Origin: Cystobacter fuscus
GTDB taxonomy: Bacteria > Myxococcota > Myxococcia > Myxococcales > Myxococcaceae
Length of the DNA stretch: 64,000 bases
NCBI RefSeq assembly: GCF_002305875.1
Contig: NZ_CP022098.1
Coordinates: 9,300,001 to 9,364,000 of the forward strand
Direction: 5' to 3'
A program made the position numbers and the translations under genes. How positions within the stretch are numbered: position 1 is the stretch's first letter; each line of letters starts with the position of its first letter. This document shows, piece by piece, positions 20,301 to 48,341 of the stretch. The notes under the pieces were generated by a model. It was not told where the DNA came from. It saw nothing but the letters and a program-made list of their open reading frames with translations, and made no database searches.

Positions 20301-21340
20301 TAACGTACGCGGCCCGCGGGCGACACCTCCTCCAACTGGATCAGCCGCTCCTCATCCCAGCTCAACTCAAGCCGTTGCGAGCCGGACTGCACGACGCGCA
20401 GCTTGGCAACGTGACTGGCAGGCGGGGCTTCGAAGTGGAGCAACGGGCCACTGCCCTCGCGGAGCGTGAACTGCCGGGGTCCCGTCCGCCGAAGCACCAC
20501 GCCATGGAGTGAGGCCTCCCCGGCATCCGCGTCCAGCGGGTCGAAGTCCAGGGTCCGCCCGGTGGGGTCTTCATAGCGCCACACCTGAGGCGAGAGATGC
20601 AGGGTGTGCTGGTACTCATGGCGGAAACCCCAGCCGAGCGGGCCGTAGAGGTCCGCCCGCGCCGTGGAGTAGTAGCGCCGCCAGCAGAAGAGTCCCGGGG
20701 GCGGCGAGCGCGCGTCCAGGAAGTCATCGAAGTTGGCTCCGGTAATGACATCCACCGGGTGGCCACCATTGCAGTGCACACCATTCTGCGCTTTGCGCGT
20801 GCTACGGGCCTTGCGCACCTTGGAGATAAGCGCCCCCAGGATGGCCATGCCCGCCCTCATTCCCAGCGCCATCAGAGACACCGTGGGCGGGCCGCCAATG
20901 AACACGGGAAGGGGAATGGAGAGCACCAGGGTCGTGGGCAGTACCAAGCTGGAGATGGACTTCTTCTTTCTTCGCCTCGGGAAGGGCGGCACTCCAATGT
21001 CCTGGCAACTGAGCACGGGCAGGGCCAGGTGGCTGAAAGGCTCGTCCTCCACCACCACCGTGGAACTGCCCATGAAGATCTCCGCCTCATTGCCAGGAGG
21101 CTTGGCGAACACCCCTCCAATAGGAAAATGAGGGGGCAGGGCGATGCCGCCCGTTCCGGCCTGGGCCCGCGGCAGTCCACCGACGAAGACGGTCGTGCCC
21201 AGGATGGGCACGTAGTCCATGGGATCGAAGACAATGCCCACGAAGGGGTGCGGGATGGGAACCACCACGCCGGGCGGGGTGATGATGAGGTGGATGTCAA
21301 TCCCCAGCAACGGATCAAGGTGCTTCGCCGCGGGCATCAT
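17366..21340 (-). CDS. RHS-repeat polymorphic toxin with PAAR-like N terminus and nuclease-like tip
   Basis: Protein of about 1324 residues. The N terminus (MMPAAKHLDPLLGIDIH, PHPFVGI, GTTVFVGGLPRAQAGT) is a PAAR-like domain that would cap a type VI secretion spike. A hydrophobic stretch follows (SSLVLPTTLVLSIPLPVF). The RHS/YD-repeat shell then runs to the core signature YYDPVLGRYLQSDP and the family-typical end PNPLVQFDVLGL. The last 166 residues (17366-17866) are the variable toxin tip, with DCDHIPSSKA and HESRDIHRGF. The Asp/His pattern suggests an HNH-type nuclease, unverified. The tip is visibly poorer in G+C than the shell. ATG 21340 overlaps the upstream stop (ATGA); an upstream GTG at 21373 is less likely. 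Confidence 0.88.
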   Translation of the reverse strand: MMPAAKHLDPLLGIDIHLIITPPGVVVPIPHPFVGIVFDPMDYVPILGTTVFVGGLPRAQAGTGGIALPPHFPIGGVFAKPPGNEAEIFMGSSTVVVEDEPFSHLALPVLSCQDIGVPPFPRRRKKKSISSLVLPTTLVLSIPLPVFIGGPPTVSLMALGMRAGMAILGALISKVRKARSTRKAQNGVHCNGGHPVDVITGANFDDFLDARSPPPGLFCWRRYYSTARADLYGPLGWGFRHEYQHTLHLSPQVWRYEDPTGRTLDFDPLDADAGEASLHGVVLRRTGPRQFTLREGSGPLLHFEAPPASHVAKLRVVQSGSQRLELSWDEERLIQLEEVSPAGRVRYRLKYDAAGLLLELLRMGGREPQCLARYTYDRQGHLVTSCDAEGGCYLYEYDGAHRWVRMRDPNGYAFWWKYDQAGRCIETAGQDGLWWTRLEYDPERWETRVTERSGGVHIFRYNEDLTLVELVDPYGGVLKREVADDGRVLQEIDSGGRVTRMLYDAQGALLGQLDPYQRVLPPAQVLPQPEPPGPAPLPETPLGLLLGSDRDVPPQVARGGQPPLLARVPQELQSLLSLLIRLYPAGRSAAPVLSFDGLGRVVSEVDPEGRSHRWVHDRAGNEVGYRDPDGRIWQQRIGRWNLVTAVEDPQGSLTRYAYSSTEQVVRVVDPAGTQSEYEYDEKDRLVKVARNGRLHEQYTWDKGDRLLEKQDALGRVLLRMEYEDGERVETRHLGSGGIHLLEHDEQGRVIRASTGDHEVDLRHDLFGQIRSDLRNGRGIQRQWVGGRCVTIVLGRFTWSLEGTAGDPLRRLGDSTGGEHLFWWDERGLLLREHAHGLRELAQYDGEGRLLSSLTWMQDFQETKPPRWTRYMYTADGDLATVWEADGRQTRYTTDAAHRLTREEGPHGRFDYVLDPAGNLLGKPGLENTVLAEANRLARANDETFVYDVRTHLSERRRPDGSRTCYTYDSADMLVRVEDAKGEPWTAEYDALGRRIRCGRGTRQREFFWDADRLAAELSPRGQLRLYVYAGHDSLVPVLFVDYPSVDAAPESGQVFVLLVNQVGAPLRIEDASGRTVWWASRLEPYGHITVAPDSRIEFNLRLPGQYHDPDTGLFYNRYRYYDPVLGRYLQSDPLDLEGGINLYAYAPNPLVQFDVLGLAHSKKRKANNVNQHKKKSVKNPGVVSSYLKTRREVRKNKYRGIDCDHIPSSKACKKAVENHLGNPLTKAEYRKLHNYITAMHESRDIHRGFSRTYGGRNTQKQIAKDAADLKEAAKKDMKAIKEALKDDGWSNKKIDDAFDKIHQRNKNIGLYDDLDKLCMTLGFI

Positions 21341-34057: not shown

Positions 34058-34231
34058 TGGCGTATCCTCGTTGCGGGGCCACCTGCATGATGGCCGGCGC
34101 GCGGGGCCCTCAGCGAAGCTCATGCCGCGCGCAAAACGCCGGAATCACTTGGCCTCCCGCTTCCGCTCCATGACAAGCGCGTCAGGGGGCGAGGGGTGTG
34201 CCCGGTTCTTGCTCCAGCCGAGGGGATGTCC

Positions 34232-35506
34232 ATGCTGCGCCGACTCGATGTCTCCCGTCCCGACCACCACCCGGCCTACGTGGTCTGGGAGCTGACGCTG
34301 CGCTGTGATCAGCCCTGCACCCATTGTGGCTCGCGCGCGGGCACGCAGCGACCCGACGAGCTGTCCACCGAGGAAGCCCTGGACGTGGTGCGTCAACTGC
34401 GCGAGATGCGCGCGCGCGAGGTGGTCCTCATCGGCGGCGAGGCCTATCTGCACCCGGGCTTCCTCGACATCATCCGCGCCTTGAAGGAGGCGGGCATCCG
34501 TCCTGGGCTGACCACGGGCGGGCGCGGCATGACCGAGGCCCTGGCGCGGCAGGTGGCCGAGGCGGGCCTGTACGCGGCCTCGGTGAGCATCGATGGACTG
34601 GAGCCCACGCATGACCTGATGCGGGCCGCCCCGGGCAGCTTCGCCTCGGCCACGGCGGCGCTCGGCTTCCTGAGCGCCGCGGGCGTGCGCGTGGCGGTCA
34701 ACACCAACTTCAACCGGCTCAACCAGGCGGACCTGGAGCCGCTCTACGAGCACCTCAAGGGCCTGGGCCCTCGCGCCTGGCAGCTTCAAATCACCGCGCC
34801 GCTCGGACGCGCGGCCGATCGCCCCGCCCTGCTCCTGCAACCGTGGGACTTGCTCGAGCTGCTGCCGCGCATCGCGGCGCTGAAGCAGCGCGCCTTCGCC
34901 GACGGCATCACCCTCATGCCCGGCAACAACCTGGGCTACTTCGGGCCCGAGGAAGGAGTCCTGCGCTCGCCGGGCCCCGACGCCTCGGACCACTGGCGCG
35001 GCTGCATGGCGGGCCGGTACGTGATGGGCATCGAGTCCAACGGGGCCGTGAAGGGCTGTCCCTCCCTGCAGACGGCGCACTACGTGGGCGGCAACCTGCG
35101 CGAGCGGCCCCTGCGCGACCTCTGGGACAACGCGACTCCGCTCGCCTTCACGCGCACGCGCACCGTGGAGGACCTCTGGGGCTTCTGCCGCACCTGCCCC
35201 TTCGCCTCCACGTGCATGGCGGGATGCAGCTTCACCGCGCACGCCCTCTTCGGCAGACCGGGCAACAACCCCTACTGCCACTACCGGGCCCGGACCCTCG
35301 CGAAGCAGGGCGTGCGCGAGCGGCTCGTCCCCCAGGCGCCCGCCCCGGGCCGGCCCTTCGACCATGGGCTGTTCGATCTCGTCGTCGAGCCCCTGGATGC
35401 GCCGGATCCCCGTCCGCCCACCCCACGCATGTTGGTGAAGCGCTTGAAATGGCCCGAGGCCCGGACCCCCCAGGCGGGGGGCGCTCGAACGGACCCCACC
35501 GGGTGA
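34232..35506 (+). CDS. Radical SAM/SPASM domain enzyme (peptide maturase-like)
   Basis: Protein of 424 residues. The radical SAM cluster is C25, C29, C32 (CDQPCTHC), followed by GGEAYLHPGF. The C-terminal SPASM region carries several more cysteines (HWRGCMAGRY, VKGCPSLQTAHY, CRTCPFASTCMAGCSF, NPYCHYRAR) for auxiliary 4Fe-4S clusters. Such enzymes typically modify peptides (sactionine or C-C crosslinks, epimerisation) or protein cysteines. The start at ATG 34232 has AGGGG six bases upstream; ATG 34226 is possible. The divergent small Cys/Asp/Gly-rich membrane protein is the only nearby candidate substrate. The exact subfamily cannot be fixed without a search. Confidence 0.88.
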   Translation: MLRRLDVSRPDHHPAYVVWELTLRCDQPCTHCGSRAGTQRPDELSTEEALDVVRQLREMRAREVVLIGGEAYLHPGFLDIIRALKEAGIRPGLTTGGRGMTEALARQVAEAGLYAASVSIDGLEPTHDLMRAAPGSFASATAALGFLSAAGVRVAVNTNFNRLNQADLEPLYEHLKGLGPRAWQLQITAPLGRAADRPALLLQPWDLLELLPRIAALKQRAFADGITLMPGNNLGYFGPEEGVLRSPGPDASDHWRGCMAGRYVMGIESNGAVKGCPSLQTAHYVGGNLRERPLRDLWDNATPLAFTRTRTVEDLWGFCRTCPFASTCMAGCSFTAHALFGRPGNNPYCHYRARTLAKQGVRERLVPQAPAPGRPFDHGLFDLVVEPLDAPDPRPPTPRMLVKRLKWPEARTPQAGGARTDPTG

Positions 35507-35510
35507 ACGC

Positions 35511-36056
35511 TCAGGCCCAGGGCTCGCTCGATTCGAACAGCCGGGCGTCGGTGTCCTCCTCGTACGGCATGCCCCTGGGCATGTGGAGGACCTCCATCTG
35601 CATGCCCCACGGCGTCAGGAAGTAGACCCAGCGGTCCCCGGCGATGGGCCCCTCGGTGATGGTCTGTGGCTCGTCGAGGACCTTCACGCCGGGCACCGAC
35701 CGGAGGTAGTCCACCGCGGCATCCACGTCGTCGACGCCGATCGCCAGGTGGTGGCCCCCCCAGTCGCTGTTGCGCGGCAGCTCCCGCCGCTGGTCCGGCG
35801 ACGTGTACTCGAACAGCTCCAGGTTGCTCACGGGCCCGAAGCGGAGCATGGCGATGTGGGTCGAGGCCCGCGGGTGCACGTTGAGGTGGCGTGTCATCCA
35901 GTCGCCCGTCTGATCCTCGACGGGGCCAATCCGATACAGCAGCTCGGCCCCGAGGACCTTGACGAAGAAGTCGACCGCCTGGTCGAGGTTGGGAACGGTA
36001 TAGGCGAGGTGATGGACGCTGCGCGCGCCAGGAATACCCTTGTTGGTACGGCTCAT
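35511..36056 (-). CDS. VOC family protein, ValD/CetB-like cyclitol epimerase candidate
   Basis: Vicinal-oxygen-chelate protein of 181 residues built from two glyoxalase-like halves. Likely metal ligands are His16 (SVHHLAYTV), Glu83 (NLELFEY), His102/103 (WGGHHLAIGVDD) and Glu155 (TPWGMQMEVLH). The pattern DWMTRHLNVHPRAS, LRFGP, PRNSD and GPIAGDRWVYFLTPWGMQME resembles, from memory, ValD and CetB, which epimerise 2-epi-5-epi-valiolone. A generic lactoylglutathione lyase is less likely. It is the last gene of the eight-gene cyclitol operon, 22 bases after the SDR stop. The pairing with a sugar phosphate cyclase supports the epimerase reading. Confidence 0.83.
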   Translation of the reverse strand: MSRTNKGIPGARSVHHLAYTVPNLDQAVDFFVKVLGAELLYRIGPVEDQTGDWMTRHLNVHPRASTHIAMLRFGPVSNLELFEYTSPDQRRELPRNSDWGGHHLAIGVDDVDAAVDYLRSVPGVKVLDEPQTITEGPIAGDRWVYFLTPWGMQMEVLHMPRGMPYEEDTDARLFESSEPWA

Positions 36057-36078
36057 GATGTATGCCTTTCAGAAGGAG

Positions 36079-36861
36079 TTACAGACGGTCCGCGTACTCT
36101 TGATTGGGGATGGCACTCATCAGCATCAGCCCGCCATCGACGGAGAGGGTGACGCCCGTGATGTAGGCGGCATCCGGTCCCGCCAGGTGGGCGATGAGCG
36201 CCGCGACCTCACGGGAGCGTCCGGGCCGGCCGATGGGAATCTCGGGTCGGGAGATCTCCGCGGCGTCCCGGCTGTCGGGAACCCCGTTCATCGGCGTGGC
36301 CGTCTCTCCCGGGCTCACCGCGTTGACGGTGATGCCGTAGCGGGCCAGCTCCAACGCCATCACCTTGGTCAACAGGCCCAGTCCCCCCTTCGAGGCGCAG
36401 TAGGCGGAGCCCCCCATGATGGGGACCAGCTCGTGGACGGAGGTCACGTTCACGATGCGCCCTCCCCTCCCCTGGGACACCATGTGGCGAGCCGCCACCT
36501 GGGCACACAGGAAGGGACCCGTGGTGTTGATGGTGAGGATGCGCTGCCAGTCCTCCGCCGTCTCCTCCAGGAACGAGGCACGGCGGTTGACTCCAGCGTT
36601 GTTGACGAAGACATCCACGCCCCCGAGCACACGGATCGCCTGCTCCACCGCGCCCGCCGCGTCCGCCGGGTTCGTCAAATCCATACGGAAGGGCAGCGCC
36701 CGCACGCCATGGGCCTCCACCTCCGCGGCGACCCGCCGGGCGCCCTCCGCGTTCGAGTTGTAGCCAATCCCCACGTCGAAGCCCTTCTCGGCCAGGGCGA
36801 TGGCCGTGGCCTTGCCGATGCCCGAGCTGGCACCGGTCACGATGGCGAAACGCTCGATCAT
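36079..36861 (-). CDS. SDR family oxidoreductase of the cyclitol operon
   Basis: Classical short-chain dehydrogenase of 260 residues. Cofactor loop TGASSGIG lies at 9-16, NNAG at 87-90, and the catalytic Ser141, Tyr154 and Lys158 are intact (SVHELV; AYCASK). C-terminal ITGVTLSVDGGLML is typical of FabG-like members. ATG 36861 overlaps the upstream stop (ATGA) and has GGAGGAAG upstream. A likely role is oxidation or reduction of a hydroxyl or keto group on the cyclitol; this is inferred from the neighbours. The preference for NADP(H) cannot be read safely. Confidence 0.92.
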   Translation of the reverse strand: MIERFAIVTGASSGIGKATAIALAEKGFDVGIGYNSNAEGARRVAAEVEAHGVRALPFRMDLTNPADAAGAVEQAIRVLGGVDVFVNNAGVNRRASFLEETAEDWQRILTINTTGPFLCAQVAARHMVSQGRGGRIVNVTSVHELVPIMGGSAYCASKGGLGLLTKVMALELARYGITVNAVSPGETATPMNGVPDSRDAAEISRPEIPIGRPGRSREVAALIAHLAGPDAAYITGVTLSVDGGLMLMSAIPNQEYADRL

Positions 36862-37637
36862 GTCTCTTCCTCCAGCAGTTCGTAGCCCGCCTGGGCGAGG
36901 CTGCCCGCGCCCAGGTAGCCGTAGACCGTCCGCGTGGTGACGCCGGGATCCGTCTGGAAGCCGTGCCATTCACCGGCCGGGATGTAGGCCAGATCGCCCG
37001 GGTTCAACCGCACCGGGCCGTCCTTCGTGAGGTGCTCTCCACCCCCTTGCAGCACCAGGAAGAACTCGTCGGCATGCGGGTGCCGATGAAGCTGGTGACT
37101 GCCTCCCGGGGTGAACGTCGAGGTGGCCACGACCACCGAGCGGGTGCCCACCGTCTGCGTGGTCGCCAGCCAGTGCACCCCCATGTCGATGAAGCCACCG
37201 GCCTCGCCCAGGGGACTGTGGCTCTCCTGATCCGCCGTCCGGGAGATGCGGCAACCGCATCCGGATCCACCGTGCACCGCGTGCGGCTCCGCGTCCCGAG
37301 GGTCGTTGCTTCCCCCGTACACCACCAGGAGCACCGTGTTCCCATCGCGTCCGGCCTCGAAGGCACGCGGCGTCCCCGGTGGGTTGAACACGCCCTCGCC
37401 CGCCTTCAGCGGCCAGCTCGTCCCGTCTCCGAGCCAGTCCCCCTTGCCCGAGAGCAGGAAGGTGACCGACTCGGCTCCGGGCAGGCCGTGCACCGGCAAC
37501 CCGGAGCCCCCGGACAGCTCCTGGATCATCAACATCCCGAGCGCCTCCGGAATGAGCTCCCGGTTGACCAGCCACTGCACTCCGCCCGAGCGCTGTCGCG
37601 AGGACCCGTTCCAGGCCTCGAGGGTCCGCCGGATCAT
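36858..37637 (-). CDS. Bicupin protein of the cyclitol operon
   Basis: Protein of 259 residues with two cupin barrels. The C-terminal barrel has a full metal site: GGSHQLHRHPHADEFFLVLQ (His, His and Glu ligands) and GDLAYIPAGEWHGF (fourth His). The N-terminal barrel (GSGLPVHGLPGAESVTFLLS, GEGVFNPPGTPRAFE) retains only part of the ligand set. A linker carries CGCRISR. Cupins of this kind are isomerases, dioxygenases or dehydratases; the reaction cannot be assigned. It overlaps both neighbours by ATGA, so it is firmly part of the operon. Confidence 0.82.
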   Translation of the reverse strand: MIRRTLEAWNGSSRQRSGGVQWLVNRELIPEALGMLMIQELSGGSGLPVHGLPGAESVTFLLSGKGDWLGDGTSWPLKAGEGVFNPPGTPRAFEAGRDGNTVLLVVYGGSNDPRDAEPHAVHGGSGCGCRISRTADQESHSPLGEAGGFIDMGVHWLATTQTVGTRSVVVATSTFTPGGSHQLHRHPHADEFFLVLQGGGEHLTKDGPVRLNPGDLAYIPAGEWHGFQTDPGVTTRTVYGYLGAGSLAQAGYELLEEET

Positions 37638-38698
37638 GACGCCCTCCGGCTGTCGTTGAAGCGCAACAGCACCTTGGGCGGACCCGAGCGGCCGCGCTCG
37701 AGCAGCTCGAAGGCGTGTCCGGCCTGCTCCGGGGGAAGCACCCCGGCGACCATCGGCCTGGCGTCCAGGACTCCGTCGACGAAGAGCTGGATCGTCCGGT
37801 CGTAGTAGTCCAGGCCGTGCCGGATGCCGAGCAGATCGACCCCGCGCAGGACGAGTTCCCCGGGCACGAACCCGGCCACCGGCTCGTTCGCCACGCCGAC
37901 CACCGCCACCCGGCCACCGGTCCCCGCGAGCTGGACACTCCTCAGGAAGGCGCGCGGAGAGCCGGAGGCCTCGATGACGAGCGAGTAGGCCCCATCCCGC
38001 GCCTCGTCGGGCCGCAGCGTGCGCCGGGCCCCGCAGGCCCTGGCCAGCTTCAGCCCCGCCTCGTCGATGCCAATCGCATCCACGCTCCGGGCCATCCGCG
38101 CGGCCAGTTGCACGGCGAGCAGCCCCATCGTCCCCGTCCCCACCACCGCGACCTCATCTTCCAGCCCGCAGCGAACCTTGTCGAAGCCCCCCACCACGGT
38201 GACCGCCGGCTCGATGAACGCGGCGCTCAGGTCATCCAGGGCCTCCGGCAACACGGTGAGCGAGCGCATGGGCATGCGGATGTACTCGGCCGCGGCGCCC
38301 TGCAGCCCGTAGAGGCCCACCTCCACCAGCCGCTCGCAGTGGGGCCGCTGGCCGCGCTGGCACATCCGGCACAGCCCGCAGGGCACCATGGTCTGGCCCA
38401 CCACCCGGTCGCCCACTGAAATCCCCTCCACGTCCTCGCCCACGGCGACCACCTGGCCGCACCACTCGTGGCCGAACACCAGCGGAAGCCGGGCCCGGCC
38501 ATCCTTGAGGTACGAGGCGGTGCCGTGCAGCAGCTCCAGATCGGTGCCGCACAGCCCCACATACGAGGGACGGATGAGCACCTCTTCCGGCCGGGGCTCC
38601 GGGATGGGAATCCGCGTGAGCTCGACACGCCCCGGCGCAGTGATGGCCACCGCGTTCATCAGGCCGCCAGGCCAGGTTCTCGGTTGAATCGCACTCAT
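37634..38698 (-). CDS. Zinc-dependent alcohol dehydrogenase (MDR family)
   Basis: Medium-chain dehydrogenase of 354 residues. Catalytic zinc ligands are in GLCGTDLE (Cys) and FGHEWCGQ (His-Glu). The structural zinc cysteines are in PCGLCRMCQRGQRPHCE (four Cys). The Rossmann loop is VVGTGTMGLLAVQ. Relatives oxidise sorbitol, threonine or inositol-like alcohols, so a cyclitol hydroxyl is a sensible substrate here. The start at ATG 38698 overlaps the small-cupin stop; an internal ATG lies 14 codons later. This gene has all catalytic residues, so it is a real enzyme of the pathway. Confidence 0.94.
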   Translation of the reverse strand: MSAIQPRTWPGGLMNAVAITAPGRVELTRIPIPEPRPEEVLIRPSYVGLCGTDLELLHGTASYLKDGRARLPLVFGHEWCGQVVAVGEDVEGISVGDRVVGQTMVPCGLCRMCQRGQRPHCERLVEVGLYGLQGAAAEYIRMPMRSLTVLPEALDDLSAAFIEPAVTVVGGFDKVRCGLEDEVAVVGTGTMGLLAVQLAARMARSVDAIGIDEAGLKLARACGARRTLRPDEARDGAYSLVIEASGSPRAFLRSVQLAGTGGRVAVVGVANEPVAGFVPGELVLRGVDLLGIRHGLDYYDRTIQLFVDGVLDARPMVAGVLPPEQAGHAFELLERGRSGPPKVLLRFNDSRRAS

Positions 38699-39078
38699 GC
38701 CACGGGTCTCCTCATGGGTAGGGATTGAGTGATGGCGTGGGGCATCACGGCGAGCCAGAGCAGCTCCAATCCGTCGCGCCCACTGGTGATGCGGGCATCC
38801 GTCCCGGCGGGCAGGAGCACCAGGTCTCCCGCCCCGAGCGGACGCTCCGCGGGATCCGAGTCCGAAGCCAGGAGACTCCCCGTGCCAGCAATGACGAACC
38901 AGGCGCTCTCGGTGCCCTCACTGCCTCGGAGCGCGAACTCGGTGCCCGGAGCCAGGCGCACGTAATCCAAGGCCTCGCACTCCGAATGCAACATCCCGCG
39001 CCGGGCCAGACAGCGCCAATGGATCTCCTCGCCCCGCTCGCGCGTGCGAGAAGTCTTCTCGATGGTGGAGAGGATCAT
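38695..39078 (-). CDS. Single-domain cupin lacking metal-binding histidines
   Basis: Protein of 127 residues with cupin-like strands (GTESAWFVIAGTGSLLA; LGAGDLVLLPAGTDARITSG). The metal ligands are missing: the region that should hold HxH reads APGTEFALRGSEGTES. The N terminus EIHWRCLARRGM matches the opening of the first barrel in the neighbouring bicupin (SQWKCLARRAG), and DGLELLWLAVMP resembles its C-terminal end (NGLEYFQAILEVP). It is therefore a paralogue that has lost the metal site, and is likely a structural partner or binding protein. It overlaps both neighbours by ATGA. Confidence 0.78.
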   Translation of the reverse strand: MILSTIEKTSRTRERGEEIHWRCLARRGMLHSECEALDYVRLAPGTEFALRGSEGTESAWFVIAGTGSLLASDSDPAERPLGAGDLVLLPAGTDARITSGRDGLELLWLAVMPHAITQSLPMRRPVA

Positions 39079-39815
39079 CGCGCTCCACCTCCCGGCACCT
39101 CGAGGATCGCCTGGAAGTACTCCAGCCCGTTCGATCCGGCGGTGACGGTCATCCCGGTGCCCAGGGGCAGCGTGACGGAGACGCCATACTTCAAGGGGAC
39201 GGTCGCCTCTCCCGAAGCGCTCTCTCCGGAGCCCCGGAGCGTGAACAGGGTGTGCTCCACGCCCTCCGCTGACAGCTCCTCCCGCTGCCCGGGCTCCAGC
39301 TTCACCAGACGGATGCGGCGCAGCGGTCCGGTGAAAACGGAACGTGGATCCACTTCAGGGGTCTGTCTCAAGTTGAGAACCACGGCGTTCGTCACGTCAC
39401 TTCCTCCAGAAGGGGTTGGGGGGGTGTGGGCCGAGCCGCGCAACACCGCCGCGGTGGCCGGGCTCAACAGCTCGACCACGAGCCAGCCCAGGCCCTCGTC
39501 TCCGACGTTGCGCAGGCCATGCTTCGTCCCGAGGCCCGTCAGGATGAGGTTGCCCGGGCCCACCGGGTACGGCTTGCCATCGAGCGTCATCTCTCCGCGG
39601 CCCGAGAGGATGAAGTAGAGCTCCTCGGTGCGCGTGTGCACGTGCTCCCCGCTGATTCCACCCGGGGGGATCCACGCCCACTCGATCGCCTCCCACGCGC
39701 CGAACAACCCGGCCCGCCGCGCCAGACACTTCCACTGGGAGAGCCCCGTGGTGCCGTGCACGCCGTACACCACCGAGGGCTCCTCCAGATCTCCGACGAT
39801 CAGCCCCTCACGCAT
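39075..39815 (-). CDS. Bicupin protein adjacent to the sugar phosphate cyclase
   Basis: Protein of 246 residues. The first barrel is canonical: GISGEHVHTRTEELYFILSG supplies two His and Glu, with TGLGTKHGLRN giving the last His. The second barrel (RLVKLEPGQREELSAEGVEH, VTLPLGTGMTVTAGSNGLEY) has no clear metal ligands and resembles the metal-free single cupin encoded next. ATG 39815 lies inside the end of the cyclase gene (8-base overlap) with GGAGG upstream. Possible roles are isomerisation or oxidation of a cyclitol intermediate; context only. Confidence 0.8.
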   Translation of the reverse strand: MREGLIVGDLEEPSVVYGVHGTTGLSQWKCLARRAGLFGAWEAIEWAWIPPGGISGEHVHTRTEELYFILSGRGEMTLDGKPYPVGPGNLILTGLGTKHGLRNVGDEGLGWLVVELLSPATAAVLRGSAHTPPTPSGGSDVTNAVVLNLRQTPEVDPRSVFTGPLRRIRLVKLEPGQREELSAEGVEHTLFTLRGSGESASGEATVPLKYGVSVTLPLGTGMTVTAGSNGLEYFQAILEVPGGGAR

Positions 39816-40992
39816 GAGCGGCCTCCACCAGTGACTCGGGGCCAGCATCCAGCTCGCGCAGGGTGGCGAGCGCCGCGCGCAGCTCGGACGGCTGCACGTC
39901 ATTGACGAAGCACGCCGAGCCGATGCCCATGGCCAGCGGCAGCCGCTGGAGCCCGTCACGGTGACGGACCGTGTCGGCCAGGGCCTCCTCCAGCACCGCC
40001 GGCTCGCAGAGCCGGTGATACACGGGCAGCTCCAGCTTGCGCATGAGCGCGAAGATGCGGTCACGCTCCTCCACGGAGATCAGCCCGCGCCGCACGGAGA
40101 GGAGCGTGGTCAGCGCCATGTCGATGTTCACAGCCTCGCCGTGCAGCAGCTCCGGCAGGGCCAGCATCTCGACCGTGGGGCTGAACGTATGGCCGTAGTC
40201 GACCACCCGCTCCAGCTTGTGCTCCCACAGGTTGAACTCCAGCTCCTCGATCATCCCCGTGATGGCCCGCTCGATGACCCGCGCCGCGGCCTGGTCGCTC
40301 TCGGGCGTCATCCCCTGCAACCGCTCGTCGATGAGCGTGGTGCCGTGGCGCTCGAGCAGCTCGAACAGGGTGCGATCCTTGATCAGGGCGATCTTGAGGA
40401 TCTCCGCGAGGCCGTTGACGATGTGCCGGGTGTCCAGCGTGCGCAGGAAGGAGCGATCCAGCAGCGTGTCCTTCGCGGGGAAGTACGTCCCGAGCCGGTT
40501 CTTGTGCGCGGCATGGTTGACCCCCGTCTTCGCACCTACCCCGGCATCCACGAGGCCAATGAGCGTGGTGGGCACGCGCACGTACGGCGTGCTGCGGCGG
40601 TAGAGACTCGCGGCGAGCCCGACGATGTCCATGAGCACCCCGCCGCCGATGGCGATGATGGGCTCGTGGCGACGCGCGATGCCGAACGCATTGATGGCCT
40701 CCACCACGGTGAAGACGGCATCCATCGTCTTGAGCGTCTCGGAGATGGGCAGCGCGAGGAGCTGGTACTTCACCCCATGGTGCTGGAGGTAGTGGCGGAG
40801 TTGCACGCCATAGAGGCGGTCCACGGTGGCATCGATCACGATGAGTCTGCGGATGGTGTCGGACCGCCGGGTCGCGCCCGCCTCCAGCAGCGCCCGGTTG
40901 TCCGGGTCGAGCAGGCCGTCCACCATCCGCACCTGATAGTGGACAGGCAGGGCCGTGCTGACGATCCAGTTGCGTGACATGTCTCGATTCAA
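39808..40992 (-). CDS. Sugar phosphate cyclase, 2-epi-5-epi-valiolone synthase type
   Basis: Dehydroquinate-synthase-fold enzyme of 394 residues. NAD-binding GGGVLMDIVGLAASLYRR and VPTTLIGLVDAGVGAKTGVN are present, followed by KNRLGTYFPAK, GLAEILKIALIKD and the zinc-site region DYGHTFSPTVEM with LLHGEAVNIDM. The Asn-His after KTGV and the LYRR(S/G)TPY segment fit the C7 cyclases that act on sedoheptulose 7-phosphate (EEVS/EVS group) rather than AroB. I cannot choose between 2-epi-5-epi-valiolone and 2-epi-valiolone as product. TTG 40992 has GGGAG seven bases upstream; ATG 40980 is the alternative. Confidence 0.87.
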   Translation of the reverse strand: MNRDMSRNWIVSTALPVHYQVRMVDGLLDPDNRALLEAGATRRSDTIRRLIVIDATVDRLYGVQLRHYLQHHGVKYQLLALPISETLKTMDAVFTVVEAINAFGIARRHEPIIAIGGGVLMDIVGLAASLYRRSTPYVRVPTTLIGLVDAGVGAKTGVNHAAHKNRLGTYFPAKDTLLDRSFLRTLDTRHIVNGLAEILKIALIKDRTLFELLERHGTTLIDERLQGMTPESDQAAARVIERAITGMIEELEFNLWEHKLERVVDYGHTFSPTVEMLALPELLHGEAVNIDMALTTLLSVRRGLISVEERDRIFALMRKLELPVYHRLCEPAVLEEALADTVRHRDGLQRLPLAMGIGSACFVNDVQPSELRAALATLRELDAGPESLVEAAHA

Positions 40993-41055
40993 GATCCGAC
41001 TCCCATTGCTGTTTTTTTGTTTTCCTGGTGGAGGGCGAAGGCCGCGGATGTGATG

Positions 41056-42759
41056 TCAGCCGTTGCGCGCCGAGAGGATGAAGCGAGAGGCCTGCTCGCC
41101 AATCAGGATGGAGGGGGCATTGGTGGGGCCGGAGGTGATCTCCGGCATGATCGACGCGTCCGCCACGCGCAGTCCCTCGAGGCCATGGACGTGCAACCGA
41201 GGGTCCACCACCGAGCGCTCGTCCACGCCCATGCGGCAGGTGCTGGTGGGGTGGAAGAAGCAGGTGGTCGCCTTGCGGATCCACTCCACCATCCCGGCGC
41301 GGCCGAGCGGTCCAGGCATGAGCTCTCGCTTGCGGAAGCGGTCGAAGGCGCGCGAAGCACCCAGCTCCCGGGACAGCTCGACGGCGGCCCACAGCGCCTC
41401 GACGTCCGCCTCGTGGCCCAGGTAGTTCATGTCGAGCACTGGCGGAGCGGAGGGGTCGGCGGAGGCCAGCCACATGCGGCCCCGGGAGGCGGGACGGACC
41501 AGGCCGGGGATGATGGAGTAGCCGTTGTCGGGCAGGGGGCCCAGCTCGGGGGTGACGACGGGGAACTCGTGGAGGATGGGTTGGATGTCCGGGCGGGAGA
41601 GCCCCGGCTGGGAACGCCACCACAGGGTCGCCTCGGCGCCGTTGCCCCGAGGCGGTGGCAAGGGAACGCGGCTCTCGTAATTGATGCCCGCCACCAGGAT
41701 GTGGTCCTGCAGTTCCTGGCCCACGCCCGGCAGGTCATGCACCACGGGGATGCCCAGGGCGCGGAGCTCGTCCGCCGGCCCCACCCCGGACTGCATCAGC
41801 ATCTTGGGAGAGTTGATGGCACCCGCCGACAGCACCACCTCGCGCGAGGCGCGCACCCGGCGCACCTGGCCTCCATGACGGAACTCCACGCCCGTGCACC
41901 GGCGGCCCTCGAAGATCAGCCGTGTCACCTCGGCGTGGGTGAGCACCGTCAGGTTGGGCCGGCTCATGGCCGGGAAGAGCAGGGCCCGGGCCACGTTGAA
42001 GCGCTCGCCATCGACGACGCTCAAGTCGAAGAAGCCCGCCCCCTCCATCCGCGCGCCGTTGTAGTCGCGGGTCGTCGGGAGCCCCGCCTCCTGGGCAGCC
42101 TCGATGAAGGCGCGGGCGAGCGGATGCGGATCGACCGCGCGGGAGATGCGCAGCGGGCCGCCCACGCCCCGGTACTCGTCCTCGCCACCGGAGTAGTCCT
42201 CCAGGTCCTTGAAGACACGGCGGACCGTCTCGTCATCCCAGCCGGGATTGCCCTGGGAGGCCCAGCCGTCGAAGTCCAGGCGGTGGCCCCGCACCCAGAC
42301 ACTGGCGTTGTTGCTGGCACAGCCCCCCAGCATCTTGCCGCGGGGACAGGGGACGACCCGGTTCGCGGCGTGTTTCTGGGGCACCGTCTGGTAGCGCCAG
42401 TCCAGCTCGGTGCCGAGCAGGTGCCGCCACCGCGATGGGATGAACACGTCTGGATGGGTTCCGGGGCCTCCGGCCTCGAGCACCAGCACCTGATTCGCCG
42501 GGTCCTCGGACAGCCGGGCGGCCAGCACACAGCCAGCCGAGCCCGCGCCAATGACGATGAAGTCATGGGCTTCACGAGGCTGCTCGCGCAACCGACGCTG
42601 GTTCTCACAGGCAGCCAAGGCTTCGTCGGCCAGTACCGCCGCCCGCTCATCCGTGATGCCTGCCTTCAAGGCGGCGCGAAGAAAGCCCTCCCGGTCCAGC
42701 TCGCCGCTGCGCACCCGATGAACGAGCAGCCCGAGGCCGCCCTTGCCGTCATGCTCCAT
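41056..42759 (-). CDS. GMC family oxidoreductase
   Basis: FAD-dependent glucose-methanol-choline oxidoreductase of 567 residues. The dinucleotide motif is IVIGAGSAGCVLAARLSE, with VLEAGG after strand 2, the GMC signature region at GGCASNNASVWVRGHR and the C-terminal HPTSTCRMG followed by DASIMPEITSGPTNAPSI. An N-terminal extension of about 70 residues (RVRSGELDREGFLRAALKAG) precedes the FAD domain, as seen in some bacterial members. ATG 42759 is set by GGGAG upstream; an earlier frame start at 42855 lacks one. It is the first gene of the cyclitol operon and likely oxidises an alcohol of the cyclitol. Confidence 0.92.
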   Translation of the reverse strand: MEHDGKGGLGLLVHRVRSGELDREGFLRAALKAGITDERAAVLADEALAACENQRRLREQPREAHDFIVIGAGSAGCVLAARLSEDPANQVLVLEAGGPGTHPDVFIPSRWRHLLGTELDWRYQTVPQKHAANRVVPCPRGKMLGGCASNNASVWVRGHRLDFDGWASQGNPGWDDETVRRVFKDLEDYSGGEDEYRGVGGPLRISRAVDPHPLARAFIEAAQEAGLPTTRDYNGARMEGAGFFDLSVVDGERFNVARALLFPAMSRPNLTVLTHAEVTRLIFEGRRCTGVEFRHGGQVRRVRASREVVLSAGAINSPKMLMQSGVGPADELRALGIPVVHDLPGVGQELQDHILVAGINYESRVPLPPPRGNGAEATLWWRSQPGLSRPDIQPILHEFPVVTPELGPLPDNGYSIIPGLVRPASRGRMWLASADPSAPPVLDMNYLGHEADVEALWAAVELSRELGASRAFDRFRKRELMPGPLGRAGMVEWIRKATTCFFHPTSTCRMGVDERSVVDPRLHVHGLEGLRVADASIMPEITSGPTNAPSILIGEQASRFILSARNG

Positions 42760-42907
42760 GGTCTCTCCCGCGAGGAATGGGTCCCTCTCAGGAGGAGTGC
42801 GCGACTGGCCGTTGTGAACGGTGAGCCGCGCCGAGAGAGACATCACATGCGTCACGTCTCCGCTCCAACCCTCAATCCAGAAAAGGAATCAGCACAGGAG
42901 CGGACGG

Positions 42908-44449
42908 ATGCAATCAGCGATGGAGGCATGGAACGAAATCGCGGCGGGCGACGAGCAGGTCAGGGACATCCCCGAGCCGTGCACGGTGATCCTCTTCGGA
43001 GCATCCGGAGATCTGGCGGGACGCAAGCTCATCCCCTCGCTCTTCCGGCTCTTCCAGGAGGGACACCTGCCCGTGGAGTTCACCGTCGTCGGAGTCTCGC
43101 TGTCCCCGATGGGACACGAGGAGTTCCGCGCACGGATGCGGATCGCGGTCGCGCGGGCGCTCGGAGCCGACCGGGTGGACGAGGCGGCGTGGAACCTGTT
43201 CGCCCGGGGGCTGTACTACATGACGTTGGATGTCTCCTCCGCCCAGGACCATGCGCGGCTGGGCGAGTTGCTCGACCAGGTGGAAGCGGAGCGGCGGACG
43301 CGGAACAACCGCCTCTTCTATCTCGCGGTGTCGCCCACGCTCTTCGGCGAGGTGGTGGAGCGGCTGGGAGAGTCGGGACTGTCCAGGCCCCACGCGAGCG
43401 GCTGGTCCCGCATCGTCGTCGAGAAGCCCTTCGGCACGGACCTCTCCAGCGCGAGGCGGCTCAACACCCGGCTGCACCGGTACTTCGACGAGGAGCGCAT
43501 CTACCGGATGGATCACTACCTCGGGAAGGAGATGGTGCAGAACCTGCTGGTGCTCCGGTTCGCCAACGGCATCTTCGAGCCCCTCTGGAGCCGTCAATAC
43601 ATCGACCATGTCCAGGTGACGTGCGCCGAGCCGTTGGGCGTCGAGGGGCGGGGCGGATACTACGAGCACGCGGGCGTGGTGCGGGACATGATCCAGAACC
43701 ATGCCTTCCAGGTGCTCTCCCTCATCGCCATGGAGCCTCCCGCGAGCCTCGAGCCCGAAGCGGTGCGCGACGCGAAGGTCCGGGTGTTGGAGACGGCGCG
43801 GCCCTTCACCCCCGAGCGCATCCGCGCCGAGTGCGTGCGCGGGCAATACGGACCGGGCCTCATCGCTGGCGCTCCCGTGTGTGGATACCGCCAGGAACCC
43901 GGCGTCTCTCCCACCTCCGGCGTGGAAACCTACGCGATGCTCACCCTGCGCTTCGACAGCCCGCGCTGGGCCGGCGTGCCCTTCTACGTGCGCTCCGGCA
44001 AGCGGCTGAAGGAGCGCGCCACCGAGGTGGTGGTGCAGTTCAAGGAGGGCCACGGCAACCTCTTCGGCACGGAGCAGCGCGAGCCGCTGTCCGCCAATCA
44101 GTTGCTCATCCGGATCCAACCGCACGAGAGCGTCACCCTGCGCGTGGCGATGAAGGCTCCCGGGCGAGAGGCGCGCGTGCGTGACATGGACATGAGCTAC
44201 GTCTACGCCTCCACCCAGGAGGGGCCGCCGCCCGAGGCCTATGAGCGGCTGCTGCTGGACAGCATGCTGGGGGTCTCCACGCTCTACACGCGGGAGGACA
44301 TGGTCGAGCGGGCCTGGGAGCTGGTCATGCCCGTGCTGGACGCATGGACCACGGAGGGCGCCGAGCCGAACTACGCCGCGGGGAGCTGGGGCCCGGAGGA
44401 GGCCAGGCGCCTGCTCGAGAGCCATGGGCGCGCCTGGCACGGGCGGTGA
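42908..44449 (+). CDS. zwf: Glucose-6-phosphate dehydrogenase
   Basis: Protein of 513 residues oxidising glucose 6-phosphate to 6-phosphogluconolactone with NADP+, the first step of the oxidative pentose phosphate pathway. The cofactor loop is LFGASGDLAGRKL, the active-site motifs are RIVVEKPFGTD and RMDHYLGKEMVQN, and FYVRSGKRLKERATEV and AYERLLLDSMLG complete the family pattern. ATG 42908 has AGGAG eight bases upstream. It is divergent from the cyclitol operon with 148 bases between the starts. That suggests it supplies pentose phosphate carbon for sedoheptulose 7-phosphate. Confidence 0.96.
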   Translation: MQSAMEAWNEIAAGDEQVRDIPEPCTVILFGASGDLAGRKLIPSLFRLFQEGHLPVEFTVVGVSLSPMGHEEFRARMRIAVARALGADRVDEAAWNLFARGLYYMTLDVSSAQDHARLGELLDQVEAERRTRNNRLFYLAVSPTLFGEVVERLGESGLSRPHASGWSRIVVEKPFGTDLSSARRLNTRLHRYFDEERIYRMDHYLGKEMVQNLLVLRFANGIFEPLWSRQYIDHVQVTCAEPLGVEGRGGYYEHAGVVRDMIQNHAFQVLSLIAMEPPASLEPEAVRDAKVRVLETARPFTPERIRAECVRGQYGPGLIAGAPVCGYRQEPGVSPTSGVETYAMLTLRFDSPRWAGVPFYVRSGKRLKERATEVVVQFKEGHGNLFGTEQREPLSANQLLIRIQPHESVTLRVAMKAPGREARVRDMDMSYVYASTQEGPPPEAYERLLLDSMLGVSTLYTREDMVERAWELVMPVLDAWTTEGAEPNYAAGSWGPEEARRLLESHGRAWHGR

Positions 44450-46096: not shown

Positions 46097-46852
46097 ATGA
46101 TGGAGCAGGAGTATCGAACCGCGCTCATCGCGGGAGCGCCGAGCCAGCTCGCACGCGAACTGGCGCTCTGGCTCGGCGAGAGGGGCATGCGCGTCTACGT
46201 CTCGGCGCACGAACCGGAGGAGCTGGAGCCCTACCTCGCGCGGGCCCGGGGCTCCGGCTCCCTGCTCATCCCGGTGGAGCTGGACACCACCCGGGTGGAG
46301 ACCGCACGAGAGCGCATCCTCGCCATCGACGAGGAGTGTGGAGGGCTGGATCTAGTGGTCGCCGCGGGCATGTACGAGGAGACGAGCGCCTGGAACTTCT
46401 CCTGGGAGAAAGCGCACCACCTCATCCAGCACAACGTCACGGGCACGGTGGCGCTCCTGACGGCGGTGCTGCCACGCATGTTGAAGCGTGGCCGCGGGCA
46501 CCTGGTGGGCATCTCCAGCCTCGCCGCGTACCGGGGCCTGGCGGGGCGCTCGGCCTACTCGGGCTCCAAGGCGTTCATCTCCAACTTCATGGAGAGCCTT
46601 CGCGCGGAGCTGTGGAACACCCCCCTGCGCATCACCTGCGTCTACCCCGGCCACCTGCGCAACCACCACGCGGTGCGAGCCCATCCCGAGCCCTTCGCCC
46701 TGGATGAGAAGGACGCGGCGGCGCGCATGGGTCGCGCCATCCTCCAGGGCAGGGCCCGGTGCGCCATGCCCTGGCAGGCCGCCCTCTTCATGCGCTCGAT
46801 GCAGGTGCTTCCCGGGGCGCTCTTCGACAGGCTCGCCCGCCACCTGCGCTGA
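46097..46852 (+). CDS. Atypical SDR family protein
   Basis: Protein of 251 residues with a short-chain dehydrogenase fold. The catalytic Ser/Tyr/Lys set is present (GISSLAAYRGLAGRSAYSGSK), as are the Asn of HNVTGTVAL and the PG after strand 6 (CVYPGHLRNH). The cofactor loop is degenerate: ALIAGAPSQLARELA replaces TGxxxGIG, and VAAGMYEE stands in for NNAG. Cofactor binding may thus be altered or lost. The C terminus is basic and may sit at the membrane. It lies 81 bases after the ELWxxDGT gene and 91 bases before a small gene that precedes a type III polyketide synthase. Confidence 0.82.
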   Translation: MMEQEYRTALIAGAPSQLARELALWLGERGMRVYVSAHEPEELEPYLARARGSGSLLIPVELDTTRVETARERILAIDEECGGLDLVVAAGMYEETSAWNFSWEKAHHLIQHNVTGTVALLTAVLPRMLKRGRGHLVGISSLAAYRGLAGRSAYSGSKAFISNFMESLRAELWNTPLRITCVYPGHLRNHHAVRAHPEPFALDEKDAAARMGRAILQGRARCAMPWQAALFMRSMQVLPGALFDRLARHLR

Positions 46853-47273: not shown

Positions 47274-48341
47274 ATGAAAAACAACATGTCCACCCGCGAT
47301 CTTCATCCCACGTTCCTCGGCCTCAGCTCGGCGTTCCCGAAGAACGCCTATCTCCAGAAGGATCTCTACGAGACGTTCGGCAAGCAGATGTACGGGGACA
47401 TCGCCGCGCTCGAGCGCATCATCCGCCGTGTCCGCGTGAAGCGCCGCTACCTGGCCCTGGACCCGAACGAGGTGCTGAGGCGCAAGGTCGGGCTCGGCGA
47501 GCGCATGGCCATCTTCGAGCGGGAAGTGCTGGAGGTGGGCGGCCGCTCACTGGAGGCGGTGCTGCACAAGGTGGATCGTGAGACCCTTGGCAGCTTCGTC
47601 ATGGCCAGCAGCACCGGCTACATCGCGCCCACGCCGGACCTGCTCCTGGCGAGGAATCATCACCTGCCCTCCCGGCTGCGACGAACCTTCGTGGGCAACA
47701 TGGCCTGCAACGGAGGGATGAACGCGCTCAACGTCGCCCTGGACAGCCTCCTGGCCCGCCCGAACGAGCGCGTGCTCCTCAACTGCACCGAGTTCAGCTC
47801 GCTCCACGTCCGCCCCGAGGAGTCGAGCCGCGAGCAGGTCGTCGTCCACGCGCTCTTCGCCGATGCCAGTGCCTCCACGGTGATGAGCATGGAGCCGCCG
47901 GGCGTGGGACCCCAGGTGCTGGACTTCACCTCCACGCACCTCTACGACGCGGTCGACCTGATGACGTGGCGACTGGTGGACGAGGGCTTCCGGATGACGC
48001 TCTCGCCCGAAGTGCCCGGCCTCATCGGCGAGCACATCGACTCGCTCATCGGAACCCTCACCGCGAGGGCTGGGCTGAGCACCGGTGACATCAAGCACTG
48101 GGCCATCCACCCGGGTGGGCCGAAGATCGTGGAGGTCATCGGCCAGAAGTACGGGCTGAGCGACTCCCAGCTCCGCTCCACCTGGCACATCCTCGAGGAG
48201 TACGGCAACTGCTCCTCGGCCACCGTCTACCTCGTCCTGGAGGACATGATCGCCCAGGACAAGCCCCAGCCGGGTGAGTACGGCGTGATGCTCGCCTTCG
48301 GCCCCGGGCTGACGATGGAAGGGGCGCTGCTGCGCTTCTGA
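47274..48341 (+). CDS. Type III polyketide synthase (chalcone/stilbene synthase family)
   Basis: Homodimeric condensing enzyme of 355 residues that would extend a CoA-linked starter with malonyl-CoA. The Cys-His-Asn triad is Cys145 (GNMACNGGM), His279 (WAIHPGGPK) and Asn312 (EEYGNCSSATV), with 33 residues between His and Asn as in plant chalcone synthase. The GFGPG-like loop is AFGPGLTMEGALL. A FabH reading is unlikely, because HPGGPKI and the loop are type III-specific. An internal ATG at 47286 could also start it. The nearby SDR may reduce the product. The kinase frame on the opposite strand runs antisense through this gene. Confidence 0.9.
   Translation: MKNNMSTRDLHPTFLGLSSAFPKNAYLQKDLYETFGKQMYGDIAALERIIRRVRVKRRYLALDPNEVLRRKVGLGERMAIFEREVLEVGGRSLEAVLHKVDRETLGSFVMASSTGYIAPTPDLLLARNHHLPSRLRRTFVGNMACNGGMNALNVALDSLLARPNERVLLNCTEFSSLHVRPEESSREQVVVHALFADASASTVMSMEPPGVGPQVLDFTSTHLYDAVDLMTWRLVDEGFRMTLSPEVPGLIGEHIDSLIGTLTARAGLSTGDIKHWAIHPGGPKIVEVIGQKYGLSDSQLRSTWHILEEYGNCSSATVYLVLEDMIAQDKPQPGEYGVMLAFGPGLTMEGALLRF

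Follow-up and report, generated by a model that had tools for sequence, protein, structure and literature searches.

A putative C7-cyclitol operon of Cystobacter fuscus sharing a cyclase-cupin core with Streptomyces

Which compound is built by an operon that joins a valiolone-type cyclase to three cupins? The question is raised by a window of 64,000 bases from Cystobacter fuscus (positions 9300001-9364000 of the single 12,349,744-base contig NZ_CP022098.1). From 42759 to 35511 on its minus strand follow genes for a GMC-family oxidoreductase (GMC), a sugar phosphate cyclase (SPC), a bicupin (BIC1), a single cupin (CUP), a zinc-dependent alcohol dehydrogenase (ADH), a second bicupin (BIC2), a short-chain dehydrogenase/reductase (SDR) and a VOC-superfamily protein (VOC). 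C7-cyclitols underlie acarbose, validamycin and natural sunscreens. We are confident that the locus is a C7-cyclitol operon of the 2-epi-5-epi-valiolone synthase (EEVS) type, and consider it fairly probable that the eight genes are transcribed together and direct the synthesis of a nitrogen-free C7-cyclitol, a carbasugar.

Cyclase, candidate epimerase and operon layout

An earlier note on this DNA had called the cyclase a C7, valiolone-type enzyme, and the comparisons supported this. In the PDB ranking ValA (4p53, E 1.3e-135) was found first, followed by desmethyl-4-deoxygadusol synthase (DDGS; 5tpr, 1e-82) and then by dehydroquinate synthases (DHQS). Over aligned columns the identity was 58% to ValA and 41% to DDGS. 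The motifs GLAEILK at 190, DYGHTFS at 261 and LLHGEAV at 278 are present, which we take to carry the ligand residues of the cyclase. At three positions, presumably discriminating EEVS from DDGS, the residues L267, D281 and H360 equal the L, D and H of ValA, whereas the DDGS row reads E-A-T and the DHQS row V-N-V; L-D-H was found in 57 of 69 alignment rows, window cyclase and ValA included. They are presumably three of the 14 active-site residues which, according to PMC4426668 (eLife), the ValA structure provided as a fingerprint for telling such cyclases apart. An AroB identity was ruled out by the PDB ranking, the L/D/H residues and the identity figures. The genome contains one further cyclase-like gene, 31% identical to the operon cyclase.

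For a first tree 112 cyclase-like matches were reduced to 68, two L110 fragments were dropped and three references added, resulting in 69 rows. A second tree comprised 62 of 83 rows; the 21 omitted were long-branched or near-duplicate and included 10 of the 14 rows with L-D-R. The latter are Streptomyces cyclases of 41-43% identity which all carry L-D-R and represent a separate subgroup, no control for DDGS. In line with the earlier note, the window cyclase and ValA shared one clade with a Shimodaira-Hasegawa-like approximate likelihood ratio test (SH-aLRT) value of 99, which excluded the DHQS in both trees and the L-D-R group in the second. The single long-branched DDGS row fell inside this EEVS clade in both trees, so the tree alone does not exclude a DDGS. 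The cyclase might accordingly make 2-epi-valiolone or desmethyl-4-deoxygadusol, with the operon building a gadusol- or mycosporine-like compound; DDGS is the second-best solved relative and poorly placed in the trees, and no 2-epi-valiolone synthase was among the references compared. We regard this as highly improbable given the lower identity to DDGS (41% versus 58% to ValA) and its E/A/T in place of the L/D/H shared with ValA. Moreover, a Pfam scan of the eight operon open reading frames (ORFs) and 20 other window ORFs (for the whole window 51 genes were called) yielded neither an O-methyltransferase nor an ATP-grasp gene, the sole methyltransferase being a tetrapyrrole methylase.

For the VOC protein the model scores, all below cut-off, were better for YaeR (E 1.8e-9) and methylmalonyl-CoA epimerase (4.9e-9) than for glyoxalase I (1.1e-5), and its nearest solved proteins are an uncharacterised VOC protein and methylmalonyl-CoA epimerases. 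The residues H16, E80, H102/H103 and E155, presumably the metal-site positions, were invariant in 16 of 16 homologues. ValD is itself a VOC protein, and two-domain VOC proteins, found in 10 Streptomyces loci, may be ValD-like.

The ORF list and Pfam reproduced the eight minus-strand genes and their order as first described (Table 1). All eight proteins fell into the expected Pfam families, CUP with a score below Pfam's cut-off. The five overlapping junctions were also recovered, with 8 bases for SPC/BIC1 and a 4-base ATGA at each of the next four, followed by a gap of 22 bases between SDR and VOC. GMC and SPC are separated by 63-75 bases, depending on the cyclase start, so that GMC is tied to the operon by short distance and synteny. 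Identical lengths of the five overlaps were found in four copies of a neighbouring genus including Archangium lansinium and A. violaceum (L020, L021, L027, L028), whose operon proteins are 68-93% identical to those of the window, indicating that the overlaps are not due to chance. The operon showed no aminotransferase, as the earlier note stated, and no gene for a kinase, a nucleotidyltransferase or a glycosyltransferase; the 20 additional ORFs of the scan yielded none of the four. A pseudoglycosyltransferase was not found there either, so the gene set of a C7N-aminocyclitol pathway was not seen in these ORFs.

Three redox enzymes complete the operon. GMC has an N-terminal extension of about 60 amino acids, kept in the myxobacterial copies, and its best PDB matches are choline dehydrogenase and alcohol oxidases. 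Its HPTSTCRMG and Asn motifs, and the motifs of ADH and SDR given in Table 1, we take to be the catalytic motifs of their families. ADH matched, below cut-off, the models of scyllo-inosose 3-dehydrogenase and threonine 3-dehydrogenase, and is likely a cyclitol dehydrogenase or an AcbL-like dehydratase. Relatives of ADH (54-58%) and SDR (59-63%) were found in L072, L075 and L084.

Table 1. Genes of the putative cyclitol operon and the divergent zwf gene, with window coordinates
Gene	Product	Position	Strand	Start and placement	Evidence
GMC	GMC-family FAD oxidoreductase, 567 aa, choline dehydrogenase/MftG-like	41056..42759	-	ATG; 42855 GTG possible	Pfam PF00732/PF05199
SPC	Cyclase, EEVS-type	39808..40980	-	TTG at 40992 possible start	PDB ranking, L/D/H residues, trees
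BIC1	Bicupin	39075..39815	-	Core gene	Alignment, AlphaFold2 model, fold search, synteny
CUP	Single cupin	38695..39078	-	Core gene	Alignment, BLAST, AlphaFold2 model
ADH	Zinc-dependent medium-chain dehydrogenase	37634..38698	-	Accessory block	Pfam; GHE and CxxCxxC motifs
BIC2	Second bicupin	36858..37637	-	Accessory block	Pfam; canonical metal motif in C-terminal barrel (read from sequence)
SDR	Short-chain dehydrogenase/reductase	36079..36861	-	Accessory block	Pfam; NF009384 above cut-off; TGxxxGIG and YxxxK intact
VOC	VOC-superfamily protein, putative 2-epi-5-epi-valiolone epimerase	35511..36056	-	Core gene	Pfam, conserved residues
zwf	Glucose-6-phosphate dehydrogenase	42821..44449	+	Likely start 42920; divergent from GMC, outside the transcript	TIGR00871 above cut-off

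Cupins and the conserved core

In the N-terminal barrel of BIC1 an HxH...E...H metal site (H58, H60, E64/E65, H99) was invariant in 26 of 26 aligned rows, while the C-terminal barrel has no metal site. The AlphaFold2 model (pLDDT 87.5) shows a bicupin fold, with YlbA (Z 22.3), AerE (21.1) and BacB (20.4) as fold matches. The matches to the bicupin isomerases AerE and BacB (bacilysin), Z about 20-21 over about 200 residues, are equal or almost equal to those with other bicupins, and the fold search singled out no one bicupin function; identity to AerE and BacB is 14-17%, and BIC1 keeps one metal site. AerE and BacB act on six-membered carbocycles, and fold and substrates together make isomerisation or dehydration of a ketocyclitol at most plausible. 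CUP contains no metal ligands and keeps the stretch RRGMLHSECE (20-row alignment). It is a divergent relative of BIC1 (31-38% to BIC1 proteins in BLAST) and was modelled with a pLDDT of 82.5. CUP and VOC lie in one open frame in Streptomyces L022, L023 and L080 and are separate in L081 of the same type, and BIC1 is split into two genes in L095. These fused and split frames suggest that BIC1, CUP and VOC work together. A plasmid search with BIC1 yielded 13 records, none of them covering 80% of the query.

The cyclase was found at 81-100% identity in 7 of 195 Myxococcota genomes, and GMC, SPC, BIC1, CUP and VOC are present in all seven copies. Five of them (window, L020, L021, L027, L028) contain ADH, BIC2 and SDR between CUP and VOC and agree in the order of all eight genes. 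In L025 and L026, from close relatives of the window strain, the row reads GMC-SPC-BIC1-CUP-VOC, with just ADH, BIC2 and SDR missing. Among 193 Myxococcota genomes BIC2 was limited to the five that have all eight genes. An extra AP_endonuc_2 gene (xylose-isomerase-like, TIM-barrel) lies between GMC and SPC in L025 and L027.

Using a cutoff of E<=1e-60 the cyclase was found at 55 places in 51 of 392 Streptomyces genomes. Forty-one of these places were searched with the window proteins over about 10-21 kb; the other 14 supplied the cyclase only. BIC1, CUP and VOC were found together at 19 of the 41 loci, also in the named strain behind L023. A BIC1 search of the 392 genomes gave 23 matches in 21 genomes at E<=1e-20. 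At E<=5e-45 BIC1 was found in 19 genomes, in all 19 within 210 bases of the cyclase and in all 19 with CUP and VOC. Of the remaining four matches, two are distant relatives (31-36%), one is the split-off C-domain of G208, and one, in G365, is a C-domain fragment lying at the beginning of a contig. An even sampling of the phylum (396 genomes) gave two genomes with BIC1, one being the centre genome itself. Co-occurrence of BIC1 and cyclase gave a Fisher p of 1.8e-27, which ignores shared ancestry and is descriptive only. Three changes in BIC1 presence are needed on the 62-row cyclase tree, with L032-L034 and their single BIC1-like cupin scored as lacking BIC1, indicating that the pairing was largely inherited with the cyclase. 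Cyclase, BIC1, CUP and VOC are the core common to myxobacteria and Streptomyces.

The Streptomyces loci with this SPC-BIC1-CUP-VOC core, for example those of S. coacervatus (L022) and S. viridochromogenes (L023), were sorted into four types, with Pfam used on representatives and similarity and reading on the others. Type A (L073, L074, L083, L085, L089, L090) combines the core with a GMC enzyme, as in the window operon, and with a second VOC-like protein in the two loci read. All six type A loci have, upstream of the EEVS gene, a second degenerate dehydroquinate-synthase-like gene with DHQS_C only (e.g., L073:10104-11303, L074:10889-12055). Type B (L076, L078, L079, L082, L086, L088) is characterised by a divergent two-domain VOC and, in 5 of 6 loci, a BBE-type FAD oxidase, type C (L022, L023, L080, L081) by a luciferase-like oxidoreductase in 3 of 4. 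Type D (L072, L075, L084) shares ADH and SDR with the window operon at 54-63% and contains a two-domain VOC and a KAS III-like gene, in L072 also a polyketide synthase. In contrast to the window, none of the loci examined showed a homologue aligning with BIC2 over 70% of the BIC2 length, and the partners differ between loci (BBE-type FAD oxidase, luciferase-like oxidoreductase, KAS III/polyketide synthase). We know of no product for the cupin-bearing Streptomyces EEVS loci.

Other arrangements of cyclases and cupins were noticed beside these. The two distant BIC1 relatives adjoin a 27-28% cyclase and an SDR (L141:6821-9371, L142:6776-9434) and represent a second cyclase-bicupin-SDR cassette. 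In L032 (2032-5186), L033 and L034, from another family of the same order, a 37-41% cyclase with a Gfo/Idh/MocA oxidoreductase upstream precedes a lone BIC1-like cupin and a NUDIX-like gene. A 40% cyclase adjoins a PhyH dioxygenase gene (Pfam in L031) in L030 and L031 of genus g7, with cupin-like and aminotransferase-like genes seen by eye some kilobases off. At L140:7820-9264 a split BIC1-like bicupin and an SDR were found, surrounded by what look like genes for a LacI regulator, an aldehyde dehydrogenase and an ABC transporter.

Proposed pathway and alternative products

Judging from homology and fingerprint, the cyclase would convert sedoheptulose 7-phosphate into 2-epi-5-epi-valiolone (EEV), and the VOC protein would epimerise C2 of the free ketone to 5-epi-valiolone. 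Metal-containing BIC1 with metal-less CUP would then act on the free ketocyclitol, either isomerising it or removing water, most likely by beta-elimination to a valienone-type cyclohexenone, and CUP may dock VOC and pass on the reactive ketone. We infer the BIC1/CUP step and the docking from co-inheritance, the CUP-VOC fusions and the AerE/BacB-like fold. Finally, GMC would oxidise a ring alcohol to the core product, and in copies with ADH-BIC2-SDR the ring might be further dehydrated, reduced or rearranged. As the operon has no kinase, aminotransferase or glycosyltransferase, the intermediates after the cyclase are probably unphosphorylated and the product is probably nitrogen-free. Overall, we somewhat favour a nitrogen-free oxidised carbasugar in whose formation the cupins take a direct part; it may be gabosine- or valienone-like. 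Gabosines, rancinamycins and COTC, nitrogen-free C7 ketocarbasugars of Streptomyces, would be the predicted product class of the operon, and to our knowledge there is no known gabosine biosynthetic gene cluster. More tentatively, the core could be an undescribed carbasugar module of myxobacteria and Streptomyces, in which BIC1 and a VOC-recruiting CUP turn free valiolones directly into oxidised nitrogen-free cyclohexenones.

Parts of this route resemble the validamycin/acarbose branch (ValA/AcbC, ValD/AcbO, AcbL, AcbN), with which the operon shares the cyclase type, by identity and discriminating residues, and a VOC protein in the epimerase slot. AcbL, a dehydratase annotated as dehydrogenase, and the SDR AcbN are paralleled by ADH and SDR of the operon. 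In the acarbose study, for which EEV was isolated from a valD deletion strain, AcbL, annotated as cyclitol dehydrogenase, dehydrates 5-epi-valiolone 7-phosphate, and AcbN reduces the enone (PMC7081202). By analogy, comparable reactions on unphosphorylated rings may be carried out by the accessory ADH and SDR. In contrast to the validamycin and acarbose pathways, the window operon is without kinase, aminotransferase, nucleotidyltransferase and pseudoglycosyltransferase and adds BIC1, CUP, BIC2 and GMC.

If the product were instead an aminocyclitol made by a complete C7N pathway like that of acarbose or validamycin, the aminotransferase, kinase and coupling genes would have to lie elsewhere in the genome. 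Such compounds usually start from EEVS and epimerase-type genes, ADH relatives of 37-41% were found in five cupin-free EEVS loci, among them L092 with its ROK-family gene, and one of the two distant cyclase-bicupin-SDR rows, L142, has a DegT-type aminotransferase next to it. We nevertheless consider such a pathway quite unlikely, since aminotransferase, kinase and glycosyltransferase are missing from the operon and the 20 other scanned ORFs, and by eye none was recognised at the other myxobacterial copies. In Streptomyces, where two loci per type were read and no systematic aminotransferase search was made, the core is accompanied by flavin, NAD and luciferase-like oxidoreductases and KAS III-like genes.

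The oxidising enzymes bring up a different end product. Dehydrations by the cupins, joined in G091 and G065 by a dehydroshikimate-dehydratase-like TIM barrel, and oxidation by GMC/ADH could aromatise the ring to a hydroxymethyl-hydroquinone or phenol. EEV becomes the quinone ring of BE-40644. Biosynthesis of BE-40644 proceeds from EEV with a later prenylation (PMC5133447), a precedent for an aromatic product. GMC enzymes oxidise alcohols, and the extra AP_endonuc_2 gene of L025 and L027, in the latter with weak QuiC similarity, would fit as well. Against this, the QuiC match reached 53.5 bits at a cut-off of 1200, the AP_endonuc_2 gene is absent from the window copy, and no prenyltransferase was found among the scanned window ORFs, so we judge aromatisation unlikely and stay with the nitrogen-free, oxidised carbasugar.

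A further operon for comparison is ebo, also conserved, whose cyclase EboD is thought to use sedoheptulose 7-phosphate, according to PMC5133447. By the same source, ebo differs by a separate cyclase clade, by its partners UbiA, a xylose-isomerase-like protein and hydrolases, and by six annotations without cupin or VOC (PMC5133447). The open-licence literature searched contained no link of cupins with EEV or carbasugars and no EEVS in myxobacteria; the cyclase and epimerase types are known, and the cupin pair was found without description there. A survey of EEVS distribution by the Mahmud and Karplus groups reportedly mentions myxobacteria.

Besides the placement of the DDGS row, several observations weigh against a cupin-dependent carbasugar route. 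The AerE/BacB fold match is equalled, or almost so, by matches to ureidoglycine aminohydrolase, quercetinase and seed globulins, and no family model above cut-off predicts the cupin reaction. BIC1 is absent from 6 of the 25 Streptomyces genomes with the best cyclase at E<=2.7e-125, indicating that some EEVS pathways do without cupins. No cyclase was found on the 11.9-kb contig of L140, and its bicupin among transport and aldehyde-oxidation genes suggests that the family may also act in the breakdown of sugars or cyclitols. Finally, G063 contains the operon without the linked zwf described below.

Possible substrate supply, neighbouring genes and wider meaning

The zwf gene is one of three in the genome and the one beside the operon. 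Six of the 7 operon genomes have a zwf of its class (at least 82% identity), whereas the 51 other genomes examined in the family have none, their best match reaching 65%; the Fisher p of 1.7e-7 for this co-occurrence ignores shared ancestry and is descriptive only. G062 has, besides this copy, paralogues of 63% and 46% elsewhere, indicating that the linked zwf is an extra gene. Confinement of the class to operon genomes fits a supply of sedoheptulose 7-phosphate, and the linked zwf is probably a supply gene feeding the pentose phosphate pathway.

In L026:1197-6935 (G092) three genes are inserted between zwf and GMC, two of them PtuA-/PtuB-like (Septu; PADLOC E 2.5e-44 and 4.5e-39), and the insert adjoins a duplicated 54-aa N-terminal piece of GMC. 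Insert and duplication together suggest that a defence island landed upstream of the cyclitol operon. On the other side, a radical SAM/SPASM protein (34196-35506, plus strand) is convergent with the operon and near nif11-peptide maturase models, below their cut-offs. It was rejected as an operon member, as it lies on the opposite strand and stands beside the operon in two same-genus copies of the six others. Elsewhere in the window we found a type III polyketide synthase (chalcone/stilbene synthase-like, 47274-48341, plus strand) with an SDR upstream at 46097-46852, and an RHS-repeat protein of 1324 aa with DUF6531 (17366-21340, minus strand).

The genes described here provide a testable route to nitrogen-free relatives of the C7-cyclitol compounds. 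The pathway-linked extra zwf suggests how the producer supplies sedoheptulose 7-phosphate, and because the operon exists in nature both as the core and with ADH-BIC2-SDR added, the roles of the two parts can be separated by strain comparison. Two cupin families recognised merely as cupins by family libraries are tied to a defined step beside an EEVS. If true, the cyclase-BIC1-CUP-VOC module would be a missing route to gabosine-type compounds and would represent a new cupin function.

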